From contig CALUTD010000016.1 in the NCBI GenBank assembly GCA_944323625.1, positions 1 through 50,210 on the forward strand: a DNA stretch of 50,210 nt, given 5' to 3'. Every line of letters begins with the position of its first letter. The stretch's first letter is position 1. The position numbers and the translations under genes are program-made. The notes under the pieces were generated by a model, which saw nothing but the letters and a program-made list of their open reading frames with translations, was not told the origin of the DNA and made no database searches. Below are positions 3,152 through 32,829 of this stretch, piece after piece. This stretch comes from Candidatus Gastranaerophilales bacterium (GTDB lineage: Bacteria; Cyanobacteriota; Vampirovibrionia; Gastranaerophilales; Gastranaerophilaceae).

Positions 3152-3886
3152 TTAATAATTAATTTCCCAGGAGTCATTTATAATTTTGGCGAGACAACAT
3201 TCACCGCTTCCCTTACTTGTACAATTGTTATTAATTGTTTTTACTGAACTATTTCCACACTCAGGAACAACTCCTAATTCTTTATCCATAACCATTATAA
3301 ATACATCTTTGCCGTATTGATTAGGCCCTTTACCACTGTTTAAATCAACATAAATCTTAGGAGCAGTCATATAAAGAGGGTCACCGTTTATATCGGTAGT
3401 TTCTGAGAATATCATTATAAATATGTCATTAAGAAAAAAAGAAGCTCTTGTTCGATTGCTAATTCCAACTCCCAGTGTAGATGATTGTCCGTTGAGTTTT
3501 ATATATGGCACCCCAGAAGTATATCCGGCCTGTGAATATAATCTGCATTTTACGGAATTGGCTAGATATGGTTTTATATAATAATCAAAATAATCTTGAG
3601 AATTTTTGTTAACATTTTCATACCATTCATCAACAGGACCGTTATCCTGCTGAGATAGCATAACAACCTGCGCAAGTGTTGAATATATTTTTTTTAATTT
3701 TGCTATTGTATCTTGTTTTTGAATATTTGATATAACAGAAGGAACAGTAATTGCCGCAACAACTCCTATAATTACAAGTGTAATTAAAACTTCTGATAAT
3801 GTAAATGAATATTTTGGAAACAAAAAATATTTCTCAAAAATTGACTTGTATTTCCCCCCCCCGTGGTAATTAGTTGTTTCAATCAT
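3152..3886 (-). CDS. Prepilin-like (type IV pilin/type II pseudopilin N-terminus) protein with G9 tract
   Basis: A 244-residue secreted prepilin-like protein. A 27-residue leader containing HGGG and FEKYF precedes FTLSEVLITLVIIGVVAA, the hydrophobic helix of class III signal peptides; predicted cleavage is Ser27/Phe28, with the conserved Glu at mature position 5. The remainder is an exported domain with several cysteines and the C-terminal family motif AKIINDSWEINY, which is also found in the 8239-8910 protein. AAGGAG sits eight bases before the ATG. Codons 9-11 are a run of nine G on the coding strand in an otherwise AT-rich gene. Loss or gain of one G would hit a stop within tens of codons. 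The first ~50 codons closely match those of the 32008-32829 gene. No pilus assembly genes adjoin it, so the role (minor pilin, pseudopilin or surface protein) is open. Confidence 0.85.
   Translation of the reverse strand: MIETTNYHGGGKYKSIFEKYFLFPKYSFTLSEVLITLVIIGVVAAITVPSVISNIQKQDTIAKLKKIYSTLAQVVMLSQQDNGPVDEWYENVNKNSQDYFDYYIKPYLANSVKCRLYSQAGYTSGVPYIKLNGQSSTLGVGISNRTRASFFLNDIFIMIFSETTDINGDPLYMTAPKIYVDLNSGKGPNQYGKDVFIMVMDKELGVVPECGNSSVKTINNNCTSKGSGECCLAKIINDSWEINY
3854..3862 (-). repeat. Homopolymeric G9 tract at codons 9-11 of a prepilin-like gene
   Basis: Nine consecutive C on the + strand are G9 on the coding strand, directly after a His codon. Tracts of this length in AT-rich genomes are classic slipped-strand hotspots. 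Deleting one base gives a stop after roughly 33 codons, and adding one gives a stop after about 18, so the tract would act as an on/off switch. Confidence 0.75.
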
Positions 3887-3963
3887 AATTTTATCTCCTT
3901 AATATGTCTATATTAACATAAAATTGCCAATTTTTACAAATAGCTAATATATAAATTTATATT

Positions 3964-8238: not shown

Positions 8239-8910
8239 ATGTTTATAAGTTTAAGATCGTTTACACTTTCGGAAACTCTTATTGCAATAACAATTATAGG
8301 AGTAGTTGCCGCAATAACGGTACCGATTATAGTAAATAAATATGCACATGAGCAAACAATAGCAAAATTAAAACAAAATTACTCAATGCTTCAACAGGCA
8401 TTTATGGCAGCGCAAAGCGAACACGGAGATATTTTAAGCTGGGAAGATTGGGAGGATTCTGAGAAAATATTATCTGAATATTTAGCCCCTCATTTACGTT
8501 ATAAAAGATTGTACCCCGTATCGTCAAATTATTATAAAATGATGTGTAATGATGGTAAGAAAAATTTTTATTATTGGTGGTTGTATCCTAAAACTCAAGT
8601 TGTTTCAGTCCCTTTTATGCCCGGTTATACGGCGGCTGTTGAACTTGATAACGGAATATGTATAGGACTAACGGCAATGGCTGATCGCAAACAAATAATT
8701 GTAGATATAAATGGTACACAAACGAATCCTAACCGATTTGGCGAAGATACTTTTATGTTTTATATAAATAACAACGGACAAGTGCGCCCGTACGGTGATA
8801 CACGTACAGCACAGTATATTAATAAATACTGTGAAAAGGGTAAACAAACAGGTTCAGGTATGACTTGTGCGGCAAGAATAATAAAAGACGGGTGGAAGAT
8901 TAATTATTAG
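8239..8910 (+). CDS. Prepilin-like protein (type II secretion/pilin N-terminus)
   Basis: A 223-residue secreted protein with a very short leader: predicted cleavage at Ser7/Phe8 in RSFTLSETLIAITIIGVVAA, with Glu12 as the mature Glu5. The hydrophobic helix is followed by NKYAHEQTIAKLKQNYSML, as in the other two prepilin-like proteins here, then a globular domain ending in CAARIIKDGWKINY, matching the C-terminus of the 3152-3886 protein. Unlike those two it has no HGGG leader and no G tract. No Shine-Dalgarno is visible. It is expressed from a consensus promoter overlapped by an XRE palindrome, suggesting tight switching. No assembly machinery is near. Confidence 0.85.
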   Translation: MFISLRSFTLSETLIAITIIGVVAAITVPIIVNKYAHEQTIAKLKQNYSMLQQAFMAAQSEHGDILSWEDWEDSEKILSEYLAPHLRYKRLYPVSSNYYKMMCNDGKKNFYYWWLYPKTQVVSVPFMPGYTAAVELDNGICIGLTAMADRKQIIVDINGTQTNPNRFGEDTFMFYINNNGQVRPYGDTRTAQYINKYCEKGKQTGSGMTCAARIIKDGWKINY

Positions 8911-18812: not shown

Positions 18813-20912
18813 TTAAGCTTTAGCTTTTATGTATTTCTTTTCGCCACTGGAATTTGCTTTTTTTGACCCGGGGTCTGAACCTAAAGTAAATCTAAAACCG
18901 CCTTGCAGTCCTACACCATCTCTGCCGCCGTTAGTTACAAATGCTTGCAAGAAGCCTGTTAATCTTTCACCCCATGTTTTTCTTACACCGACTCCATATT
19001 TAATATAAGGTTTTACGCTTAATTCAGGGAGTGAAACATCATTTGCTTTAAATTGAGTTTTATCCATTATATTCCAAACAAAACTTACTCCTGCATAAGG
19101 CTGCCAACCGTTCTTTAAGTTTCCGATGAATTTTAATCCCGGTTCAATGTGTATTGCATTTAACGGATCTGAATTTATTCTTACTCCTGCAGCATTTGTA
19201 TAGTCAAATGTGTTTACGAATGAATATGACATTAAATAGCTTGGTTGGATAATGAATTTACCGTCTGCCAATTCGAAGTTGTATCCTGTTTTTGAAGCTA
19301 TACCAGTCATTAACATTGTGAAATCTTCACTTCCGTACATTGTATCAAGTTCACCAACATTAGAGCCTACATTTGCGGTTAAACCGGTAAAGAAATTATC
19401 CTTATATGCCATACCAACTAAACCTAATGAACCTCCGTTTTGATATATACTATTACCTTGATATGCCTGATGTGAACCGTTGTACCCTGCATATACGCTA
19501 AACATTGTATCCCATCCGTTTGAAAGTTCATACATTTCAGAATCCAAACCTATGAAAGTACCGTATGCAACGTTTGAAACTTTAGGTCCGTTCTTTAAAC
19601 CGACACTTTCAAATGTTCCGTATGGTCTGAACCATCCTGCTTTATCGCTGTAGGGAGTACTTAACGGACTGTATACAAGGTCTGAATCTCCGGCAGCGTA
19701 CTTATTAGCATTTTTCATTGCCTGTCTTTGAGATTTTGTCATTAACATATACATATCCATATTTCTGAAGGCTTCATCATACGAATTTAACTGTGTTAAA
19801 TAACCTCCCAATTGTGCTGCAACGGAAGCACCCATAATTGCCGGGTTAAAATCGTTGTAACTGTTCCCTGTCGGGTTATATGATACTGTTCCGTCAGTAC
19901 TTACACTTCCTTGCAGATATCTTATAGGAGTTAATACTTTTGCCGCTATTATTTCATCAGGGTTTGATATTGCTAATTGGTCCGCTGTTAAACCGGTTAA
20001 ATCAAATATGTTAAACGTCACCGAATTTGCAGTTGTATTTCCTACCGGATTTATTGCTTCAAGAACAAATTTACCCGTTGAAGAAGAATCGACTGCATCT
20101 TTAAAGTTATCGGCATTAGACCCGCTCAAATCAACATCTACGGCTAAATCAACATTGCCGTTTAATTTAAATGTATCGGGAGCAAATGAATCAATTTGAT
20201 TATTTAATGTTAGTAATTCGGAATTTTCATTCATTGTAATCTGAGAATTATTAATTTGACTTCCCTGATTTAACCATAATGCTGCATCGGTTACTGTCAT
20301 ATTAGTATTATTTAATGCGGATTGAAGATTTAACATACCGTCACCGGTTAAATTTGTATTAAACTTATCCGCAGTTCCCGAAATTCCGCTTGCAATAGTA
20401 ATTATCCTGTCTTCTGAAGTATTAAGATTTAAATTACTGTCTTTTGTCGCCATATATATGTCGCCGCCGTCAGAAGCAGTATTACCGCTAAAAGTAACAT
20501 CGGTGTTCAGGGCGTTAACTGTTACATCTGCAGTTGAATAGACTGCACCGCCTTGAGCTGCAGAGTTATTAATAAAGGATGTATCAGTTAATGTTAAATT
20601 ATTTGTTGAAGAGATTGCGCCGCCTGACTCACCTGCTGTGTTGCCGGTAAATGAAGCACCGTTTAATTCAAGAGCTGCTGCCGTTACTATGGCACCTCCG
20701 CTTCCTGTTGCACTATTTCCCGTAAAAACTGCATTATCACCTATTGAAGTAGTTATTGTATCTTGTTTTACAAATATTGCACCGCCATCATTGGCAGAGT
20801 TATTTTCAAACAGTGCATTGCTGCCGATTTTAAATGAAACTGTTTTATTTGCATCATTTTCAATAAATATTGCACCGCCTACTGCATCTGAATCTGTACC
20901 GGTATTTGTCAA
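18813..20912 (-). CDS. C-terminal half of an interrupted Pmp-like autotransporter (beta-barrel)
   Basis: This open stretch is in the same frame as the 20997-22262 gene and is separated from it by one TGA. It continues the GGAI/FxxN repeats (GGAIFIENDANK, GGAIFVKQD, GGAIVTAAA, GGAISSTNN) to about residue 165. A passenger stretch follows, then a ~300-residue autotransporter-type beta-barrel (about 390-690, GWFRPYGTFESVGLK to VGLQGGFRFTLG) and a short charged tail. The first possible start is TTG without a ribosome-binding site, so it has no convincing start of its own. It is most likely the rest of a ~1165-residue outer-membrane protein that is only made by readthrough or after reversion. Confidence 0.8.
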   Translation of the reverse strand: MTNTGTDSDAVGGAIFIENDANKTVSFKIGSNALFENNSANDGGAIFVKQDTITTSIGDNAVFTGNSATGSGGAIVTAAALELNGASFTGNTAGESGGAISSTNNLTLTDTSFINNSAAQGGAVYSTADVTVNALNTDVTFSGNTASDGGDIYMATKDSNLNLNTSEDRIITIASGISGTADKFNTNLTGDGMLNLQSALNNTNMTVTDAALWLNQGSQINNSQITMNENSELLTLNNQIDSFAPDTFKLNGNVDLAVDVDLSGSNADNFKDAVDSSSTGKFVLEAINPVGNTTANSVTFNIFDLTGLTADQLAISNPDEIIAAKVLTPIRYLQGSVSTDGTVSYNPTGNSYNDFNPAIMGASVAAQLGGYLTQLNSYDEAFRNMDMYMLMTKSQRQAMKNANKYAAGDSDLVYSPLSTPYSDKAGWFRPYGTFESVGLKNGPKVSNVAYGTFIGLDSEMYELSNGWDTMFSVYAGYNGSHQAYQGNSIYQNGGSLGLVGMAYKDNFFTGLTANVGSNVGELDTMYGSEDFTMLMTGIASKTGYNFELADGKFIIQPSYLMSYSFVNTFDYTNAAGVRINSDPLNAIHIEPGLKFIGNLKNGWQPYAGVSFVWNIMDKTQFKANDVSLPELSVKPYIKYGVGVRKTWGERLTGFLQAFVTNGGRDGVGLQGGFRFTLGSDPGSKKANSSGEKKYIKAKA

Positions 20913-20996
20913 AGTATTATTTCTGAATACAGCATTGTTTCCGATTTCTATACTTGATTCATTGGTTGAAGAGTTAACACCATTATATATTACAGC

Positions 20997-22262
20997 TCAG
21001 CCCCAAACTGCTTTATTATTTTCAAATACAAGATTATTGCCCAGTTTTGCGCTGCCGAAGTTTTGAATTGCTCCGCCGGCGGCTTTTGTGGCTGCATTAT
21101 TGCTAAATATTATATTATCTTCTACAGTTAATATACCGTCTGCATAATTGTACAATGCTCCGCCTCTGCCTGCTTGATTACCGGTGAATAAGGTATTTTC
21201 TCCGATTGTCAATTCTGCGCCAGTATTATTAAATATACCGCCGCCATATTCTGCAGTATTGTTTGAAATTATTGAATTATTAACATGCATTGTGCTTACG
21301 GTATTAAATATACCACCGCCTTGATTAACAGCGCTGTTACCGTCTATCGTGCTATTGTTTACCGTAACATTTCCGATTGCCGTACTGTAAATTCCACCGC
21401 CTTGATTGTCGGCTGTATTTCCTGATATCACCAAATTATCAAAATTCGAACCGTTTGCACCTTCGGATTTTGTATGAATGTATATTGCACCGCCGTTTCT
21501 TCCTGCTGTATTATCGCTTATTGTGGAATTTGAAAGAGAGAAGTCTATAAAGGAAGCTACGGCACCTCCGTCTATTGCCGCTTGGTTGCCTGAAAACTCC
21601 GAATTTGATATACTGAGAGAATTGCGTCCATCATTTATTGAATCATTACGTAATGCAACGGCGCCACCTACTGTATTGGATATATTTTTATTAAAGGTTG
21701 AATTTGAAATTTGTACATTTGCCGCACTTCCGATGAAAATTGCGCCTCCGCCGCCATCATCCGTTGTTGTGAATCTGTCGGCCCAGTTTGTTGATTCTGT
21801 TGAGTTTCCTTCAAAAAGTACATTATCAATTGAGCTTGCAATTGAACTTTTATTTCCCAGCCATAAAGCACCGCCTTCATAAGCTGCTGAGTTATTTGTA
21901 TAGCTTCCGCCGGTTATGTTTAAAGGGCCGCTGTATCTTCTTTGACAAATTGCACCGCCGGAGTATGAACTGTAGTTATTATCAAATGTTGAATTTATTA
22001 CTTCTGTTACTGCATCAGACGAAGTATTAATATCTATTGCACCACCTGCACCGTAATTTAGAGCCTTATTGTTTGTAAATATTGAGTCTTTTATTGTACT
22101 TGCAATACTATTTGTTATTGCACCTCCATCACTATTTGTTTCATATCCGTTATAAGTTTTGTTTATAACTTCTGCGACATTAATTTCATGCGTTTGTGCT
22201 TCTGCTGTTATTGCAAATGTTGAACTTATCAATATTGCAGTGAGCAGCCTTCTCTTTTTCAT
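20997..22262 (-). CDS. N-terminal half of an interrupted Pmp-like autotransporter (passenger)
   Basis: The passenger begins with a Sec signal peptide (MKKRRLLTAILISSTFAITAEA). The start at 22262 is preferred over an upstream in-frame codon at 22310 because AGGAG stands eight bases before it and the signal peptide begins there. About a dozen chlamydial-Pmp-type units follow, each FxxN then GGAI/GGGI, forming a beta-helix. The frame ends at TGA (20999-20997) exactly where the next unit would read WGGAV: one base change at 20999 turns GGA into TGA. Without the barrel the product cannot anchor. The frame beyond the stop is open to 18813. This is a recent nonsense mutation, a switch, or a base-call error. 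Confidence 0.85.
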   Translation of the reverse strand: MKKRRLLTAILISSTFAITAEAQTHEINVAEVINKTYNGYETNSDGGAITNSIASTIKDSIFTNNKALNYGAGGAIDINTSSDAVTEVINSTFDNNYSSYSGGAICQRRYSGPLNITGGSYTNNSAAYEGGALWLGNKSSIASSIDNVLFEGNSTESTNWADRFTTTDDGGGGAIFIGSAANVQISNSTFNKNISNTVGGAVALRNDSINDGRNSLSISNSEFSGNQAAIDGGAVASFIDFSLSNSTISDNTAGRNGGAIYIHTKSEGANGSNFDNLVISGNTADNQGGGIYSTAIGNVTVNNSTIDGNSAVNQGGGIFNTVSTMHVNNSIISNNTAEYGGGIFNNTGAELTIGENTLFTGNQAGRGGALYNYADGILTVEDNIIFSNNAATKAAGGAIQNFGSAKLGNNLVFENNKAVWG

Positions 22263-22328
22263 ATCCTTCGCTCCTATATAATTAATTCCACAAGTTCCCC
22301 TTCGGGTCACTACATTTTTGCATGATTA

Positions 22329-31954: not shown

Positions 31955-32007
31955 TTTTGAAAAGTTATAAAATATATGATAAAATAAAATAAAAAGGAGA
32001 TAAAACT

Positions 32008-32829
32008 ATGAATAAACCAATTAAACACCACGGGGGGGGTAGACACGGGTTAGTTTTTGAGAAATATTTTTTACCTCCAAAATATTCATTTACATTAGCA
32101 GAAGTACTTATTACTCTTGTAATTATAGGAGTTATTGCGGCAATTACGGTTCCTGTTGTAATGGCAAACCACAAAAAGACTGAAACTGCAGCAAAACTGA
32201 AAAAGTTTTACTCTACACTTTCAAATGCTGTCAGATTATCTGAAATAGAATCGGGCAACCAATCTTATGAGTGGGGAGTTTATAGAGAGGCCGATGGAAC
32301 AGGTTCGCATGTAGGACCTTCTTATATTTGTTCGGATTATAATTCAATGAAAACATTTTATGAAACTTATTTGCTCAATCATATGAGTTATGTGAAAGTT
32401 TCAAAAATGTCTGATAATGCAAAATATTTTAATCAAATAGACATTCAATTTAAGGATCTTAGTAATAATTCGGCGGTTGTATACTTAAATGACGGTTCTT
32501 TGTTTTACGGAGATGAATGTCCTATGTCAATAGTATACGATGTAAACGGTGAAAAAGGCCCAAACAAAATGGGCAGAGATTTATTTCAATTCAATATATT
32601 TACAGAAAAACTTGAAACTGAAAATGATTATCTTTTGGAAAAGATTCCGCATGTTAATACCAATGTTTGGGGCTGGAGTGATACTTCTTTTACTCCCGGA
32701 ATATATGAACGAGAGCAAAACAGGGATTATGTTTTGGAAACATGCCGGGAATCGGGGTTATGGTGCTCGCATTTACTGGAAATTGACAGTTGGGAATTTA
32801 AAAACGATTATCCTAAAAGATTAAATTAA
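32008..32829 (+). CDS. Prepilin-like protein with G8 tract
   Basis: A 273-residue prepilin-like protein, close kin of the 3152-3886 product in its first ~50 residues: a 27-residue leader with HHGGG and FEKYF, predicted cleavage Ser27/Phe28, then FTLAEVLITLVIIGVIAA with Glu32 as mature Glu5. A charged KLKKFYSTL helix and a cysteine-containing globular domain follow; the C-terminal DSWEF replaces the usual DxWxINY. AAGGAG lies eight bases before the ATG. Codons 9-11 include a run of eight G; losing or gaining one G creates a stop within a few codons. No secretion genes adjoin it. Confidence 0.85.
   Translation: MNKPIKHHGGGRHGLVFEKYFLPPKYSFTLAEVLITLVIIGVIAAITVPVVMANHKKTETAAKLKKFYSTLSNAVRLSEIESGNQSYEWGVYREADGTGSHVGPSYICSDYNSMKTFYETYLLNHMSYVKVSKMSDNAKYFNQIDIQFKDLSNNSAVVYLNDGSLFYGDECPMSIVYDVNGEKGPNKMGRDLFQFNIFTEKLETENDYLLEKIPHVNTNVWGWSDTSFTPGIYEREQNRDYVLETCRESGLWCSHLLEIDSWEFKNDYPKRLN
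32032..32039 (+). repeat. Homopolymeric G8 tract at codons 9-11 of a prepilin-like gene
   Basis: Eight G follow two His codons, at exactly the same codon position as the G9 tract at 3854-3862. A one-base gain gives an immediate TAG, and a one-base loss a stop about five codons later. Confidence 0.75.

Follow-up and report, generated by a model that had tools for sequence, protein, structure and literature searches.

Does a run of nine guanines near the start of a pilin-like gene act as a length-dependent switch, and is it one of a kind in its genome? The question is raised by a prepilin-type gene on the minus strand (3152..3886) of the window, by which we mean the whole 50,210-nucleotide stretch of Candidatus Gastranaerophilales DNA that was analysed. 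Codons 9-11 of this gene are made up of an uninterrupted G9 tract (3854..3862 on the minus strand; C9 on the plus strand). Phase variation driven by repeats is known above all from pathogens, of which Campylobacter, Neisseria and Haemophilus are examples. A first-pass annotation of the window had read the run as a candidate phase-variable switch with the architecture of a contingency locus.

A G9 tract in the leader of a prepilin-type gene

The nine-G run is real and stands at codons 9-11, as first described. It is the longest G/C run of the window, the only other run of at least seven being a G8 at 32032-32039. Ahead of it lies a compact leader module (3863..3886, minus strand), an ATG plus seven codons in open frame with CAC as the last codon, and a Shine-Dalgarno sequence, AAGGAG, is located 8 nt upstream of the ATG (3895..3900, minus strand). 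The predicted 244-aa product consists of an 8-residue leader (MIETTNYH), GGG, a linker and the SFTLSEVLITLVIIG helix at residues 27-41. Its prepilin-like identity, proposed in the first-pass annotation, is borne out by two profile models that both score above their cut-offs, namely Pfam N_methyl (PF07963; 22.7 bits, cut-off 21.2) and the NCBIfam prepilin model TIGR02532 (18.5, cut-off 16.3). A structure model of low confidence (mean pLDDT 48) has a long N-terminal helix. At prepilin cleavage sites, a small residue, usually Gly, precedes the +1 Phe; the site expected here, Ser27-Phe28, has Ser instead of the usual Gly, and the paralogues mostly have S at this place followed by FTLAE.

The product of this gene was recomputed for each tract length. 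G7, G8 and G9 give 16, 33 and 244 aa, respectively, while G10, G11 and G12 give 17, 34 and 245 aa. The gene is ON at 9 or 12 and, by frame, is ON at its present G9. A change of a single G is computed to make the difference between full and truncated product; the earlier statement that either one-base change truncates the protein within about 35 codons agrees with the 33 aa at G8 and the 17 aa at G10.

No close orthologue of the gene was found in 40 congeners or GTDB contigs, where the best match has 31% identity; the single database relative of the protein comes from a Candidatus Gastranaerophilales MAG (31% identity). Among the relatives searched in which the corresponding flank was present, none has a prepilin gene near (to about 1.5 kb) the SNF2 gene that adjoins the flagged gene, and viral contigs gave no match.

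Two further prepilin-type genes lie in the window. The first (32008..32829, plus strand; 273 aa, MNKPIKHHGGGRHGLVFEKYFLPPKYSFTLAEVLITL) is a paralogue with a Shine-Dalgarno sequence AAGGAG at 31994-31999 and a G8 tract in its leader (32032..32039, plus strand), placed as in the flagged gene. It is ON at 8 or 11 and OFF at 9 and 10, and is in frame at its G8. Its protein scores 20.6 bits against PF07963, just below the cut-off, and 17.8 against TIGR02532, above the cut-off. The other (8239..8910, plus strand) has a short leader, MFISLRS, without a tract and serves as a comparison case. Elsewhere in the window, one in-frame TGA (at about 20998) interrupts an autotransporter-like gene (18813-22310, minus strand) and leaves two ORFs; the gene is possibly a recent pseudogene.

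Excess of poly-G runs in the genome

The genome is a 1.99-Mb draft in 37 contigs. Tracts were located by pattern search of the genome, and their surroundings were then retrieved to fix exact lengths; homopolymer lengths in draft assemblies such as this one can be one off. In total, 121 runs of G≥8 are present (2 G8, 63 G9, 49 G10 and 7 G11). By chance, a dinucleotide model of both strands predicts 4.9 runs at G≥8, where 121 were found, and 0.94 at G≥9, where 119 were found. The length spectrum, from DNA mostly chosen around tracts, is bimodal, with 39 G5, 4 G6, no G7, 2 G8, 63 G9, 49 G10 and 7 G11. Because of the gap at G7, the poly-G tracts form a separate class rather than the tail of a random distribution.

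Most of these tracts belong to pilin genes. PF07963-type places number 117 at a loose cut-off and 108 at E≤0.01, compared with 63 and 54 in two congeners and 3-17 in all others (E≤0.01). Approximately 85 of the 121 tracts (about 70%) stand ahead of a prepilin motif. The proposal of a phase-variable switch is supported at this level, with 119 runs of G≥9 where about one is expected and with dozens of paralogues that carry the tract at the same position.

In the layout that we call fused, the tract lies within the ORF, usually in the order ATG, seven codons, GCYAC, poly-G, TA, a 16-codon linker and SFTLAEVLITL. A Shine-Dalgarno match precedes most G-oriented leaders. In 58 G-oriented leaders with an ATG at -24, the frame from ATG to tract is open in 58/58, position -2 before the tract is A in 58/58 and position -1 is C in 57/58. 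In a smaller class of leaders, the coding strand carries the tract as C, and the GCYAC motif is in the opposite orientation. In the separate layout, judged by eye, a short leader ORF contains the tract. Downstream of this ORF come an AT-rich inverted repeat and its T-rich stretch, a promoter-like TATAAT and, last, an ATG that belongs to the pilin itself; L017, L018, L071, L116 and L140 are examples. An alignment of 54 paralogues has ten invariant columns, including T29, E32, G41, D181, N183, N189 and D194 in the numbering of the flagged protein.

Tracts also occur in ORFs for a DegT aminotransferase, a UDP-glucose dehydrogenase, a hexapeptide acetyltransferase, a GT2, an FdtA and an Acyl_transf_3 protein, and such genes are the usual company of contingency loci. 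At one further place (L068; G000:C1, 152381-152389), a G9 run lies immediately ahead of the start of an autotransporter-like ORF.

Across the genus, the number of tracts (G≥9) ranges from 0 to 119 (0 to 76 in the relatives and 119 in this genome), while genomes outside the genus have 0-6. The pilin leaders of two congeneric species, G008 and G019, carry GCYAC-G9-TA in both orientations, and in G008 the coding strand mostly carries it as C9; a control search with the motif reversed letter by letter gave no match. Another congener, G007, has 67 runs and only 3 prepilin-type genes. In genomes of this type, with few prepilin genes and many runs, the tracts must therefore mostly serve other genes. 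MutS_V proteins were found in 40/41 congeners, this genome included, and are missing only from one tract-free draft. Loss of mismatch repair was rejected as the cause of tract number, as MutS is present in tract-rich and tract-poor genomes alike.

Most pilin genes are OFF by frame

Fused genes with an ATG number 61; of these, 6 are ON and 55 are OFF. The six are the flagged gene (G9), the 32008 gene (G8), L077 (G11), L080 (G9), L087 (G10) and L102 (G10). The length required for ON is 8/11 in 48 genes, 9/12 in 8 and 7/10 in 5. Hence, both common lengths, 9 and 10, are OFF in 48/61 genes, a share that differs from one third with a binomial p of 5e-13, the genes being paralogues and not independent. 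Taking each gene's frame together with the distribution of tract lengths over the genome, one would expect 9.8 genes to be ON; the number observed, 6/61, is about what the lengths alone would give. The OFF bias is thus a result of the frame setting. The same setting recurs in other species, sampled at length 9 only: in G008, fused genes with a start need 8/11 in 21/21 C-oriented and 4/4 G-oriented cases, and several G019 genes need 8/11 as well. Its origin has two readings. It may reflect selection for rare expression; or the tract may have been born in frame at 8, the shortest slippery length, and then have drifted to 9 and 10.

Nearly all ORFs in the OFF state remain open for 200-250 codons. 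When the linker from tract to helix was compared between close pairs, the prepilin frame gave 30 synonymous to 100 non-synonymous codon changes, whereas the other two frames gave 14/111 and 16/103, a synonymous share about half that of the prepilin frame. This lends modest support to the linker being read in the prepilin frame.

The contingency-locus architecture proposed for the flagged gene fits what is seen in the family, given the 8-11 spread in tract length, the intact out-of-frame ORFs and the tracts in other classic contingency genes.

Tract length and identity among paralogues

Paralogues with the same downstream frame differ in tract length over the range 8-11. In 5 of 11 near-identical paralogue pairs (at least 88% identity just past the tract), the two members differ by one G. 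In 10/11 pairs, the 60 nt after the tract are 88-100% identical, while identity over the 60 nt before it is 0.47-0.75, within the range of unrelated leaders (mean 0.53, sd 0.13). For L017/L018, about 130 nt past the tract are identical, most of which lie outside the pilin ORF. Leaders of G008 that are near-identical over 60 nt are found ahead of diverged bodies. To judge from these alignments, the mosaic paralogues look like products of an exchange of pilin bodies between leaders with its breakpoint at the tract.

At L092 (G000:C5, about 51507-51516), one G10 run is common to two facing pilin leaders with no pilin between them, the leader being G-type on one strand and C-type on the other. L092 is a possible product of inversion between tracts.

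Discussion

Slippage-driven phase variation is the best explanation of the poly-G pilin tracts, and we consider it probable. Translation can start at a single Shine-Dalgarno/ATG, and some seven codons on lies a run of 8-11 Gs. Of three successive lengths, just one links the ATG to the prepilin frame, and the others end early. Replication slippage presumably adds or removes one G frequently, such that cells would differ in the pilins that they make. The flagged G9 would then be the switch of one among some 60 to 85 like-built pilin genes. With 9 and 10 both OFF and only 8 or 11 ON in 48/61 genes, few pilins would therefore be displayed per cell. The purpose may be a sparse, shuffled surface display towards host, phage or competitors. 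In addition, the tract appears to mark a 5' seam where leaders have exchanged pilin bodies.

The main rival is recoding, in which slippage of RNA polymerase or ribosomal frameshifting on G9/G10 would yield a fraction of in-frame product whatever the tract length, and the state of the DNA would be irrelevant. Recoding would suit a genome in which the majority of loci fall out of frame at 9 as well as at 10. It would also suit G008, where 25/25 sampled fused pilin genes with a start are OFF at 9 (the only length sampled there), and a strong OFF bias is also the expected look of recoding or of gene silencing. The pilus G tract of Bifidobacterium breve has itself been discussed for both replication and transcriptional slippage (PMC9187656). 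Nevertheless, tract length is not fixed but varies from 8 to 11 within one layout, 6/61 genes are in frame at the DNA level, and similar tracts are found in unrelated gene classes. An upstream hairpin is absent as well (mean -1.3 kcal/mol over 45 nt), and hairpin-stimulated slippage was rejected on finding 0/83 tracts below -8 kcal/mol. The pattern of a programmed transcriptional slippage site, which is a fixed-length out-of-frame run with, in some cases, a stem-loop, was not found at these tracts. We regard recoding as unlikely.

It is less likely still that the tract is mainly a recombination seam, a GCYAC-G9-TA element for body exchange with only secondary effects on the frame. The change of identity at the tract in 10/11 near-identical pairs, the motif in both orientations in pilin leaders, the two facing leaders across one tract at L092 and the near-identical G008 leaders ahead of diverged bodies all speak for such an element; but there are also poly-G tracts with neither the motif nor a pilin, a seam does not require the 8-11 length window or the gap at G7, and neither a recombinase nor a donor/expression-site structure was identified. 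Seam and switch are compatible, and both can hold. A pilin expansion in decay, in which copies out of frame would be pseudogenes and the G runs a by-product, is very improbable: a few copies are indeed short or have internal stops (L083, L131, L132), but nearly all ORFs are intact over 200-250 codons with the defect at one place only, which contradicts decay, and runs of G≥9 are about 100 times above chance. We give least credence to an assembly or sequencing artefact, by which true lengths would be off by one and most genes would be in frame. This is a draft assembly, and database entries can give wrong G-tract lengths (PMC9187656), yet a uniform one-base error is unable to bring 9 and 10 both in frame, and independent genomes of the genus show the runs again, and at the same positions.

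Returning to slippage-driven phase variation, we tentatively suggest a wider reading, to which we give somewhat less than an even chance, namely a pilin diversification in two layers. One poly-G run would be both a slippage switch, OFF at 9/10, and a recombination seam, and a cell would show a handful of some 60 pilins; this would apply to three species or more within a single non-photosynthetic, gut-dwelling genus related to cyanobacteria. Apart from this wider reading, some 110 genes of prepilin type and some 85 poly-G switches appear to be given over to one surface structure in an uncultured, gut-type neighbour lineage of the cyanobacteria, a scale at the level of the largest known phasomes. 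The frame rule, with 9 and 10 OFF, suggests how a large surface repertoire could be kept mostly silent without a regulator. Furthermore, automatic annotation may miscall or miss most of the pilin genes, because most assembled copies read as frameshifted.

The closest likeness in tract length is to Campylobacter, whose poly-G/C tracts are 53% of length 9 and 26% of length 10, with 5-81 phase-variable genes per strain by the cut-offs of that study (PMC6321876). Here, too, the length peak is at 9 and then 10 (52% G9, 40% G10), and the low-GC genome, the intragenic poly-G and the presence of surface-sugar genes among the targets are shared with the Campylobacter phasome. Unlike in Campylobacter, about 70% of the 121 tracts head one family, the pilins, via a shared leader, and ON is mostly at 8/11, with both common lengths OFF.

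Neisseria pilE/pilS has one expression site and silent partial cassettes. In our genome, by contrast, each pilin copy apparently has its own ATG leader and tract, and the copies are scattered; a single expression locus of the Neisseria type with startless donors was not found, as 58 copies each possess an ATG and a 7-codon leader of their own. The exchange proposed here is read from mosaic paralogues alone, again unlike in Neisseria. What the two share is a large phasome, pilin as a variable target and pilin segments swapped between copies. In silico analysis and deep sequencing gave 115 phase-variable genes in N. meningitidis (PMC5084427), and a claim to a record number of switches was rejected on that account.

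In the sortase pili of B. breve, a G tract in the pilin gene decides whether the ORFs for signal peptide and pilin are joined or apart, the mouse gut enriches for the length that joins them, and replication slippage can act at this tract (PMC9187656). Both systems place a G tract in a pilin gene of a gut commensal. They differ in that B. breve is Gram-positive with two sortase-pilus clusters, whereas the present genome has dozens of type IV/II-type prepilins. A literature search that left out most subscription papers gave no earlier report of poly-G or phase variation in Gastranaerophilales. Taken together, the mechanism is of a known kind, while its scale, the taxon and the default-OFF frame rule appear to be new.
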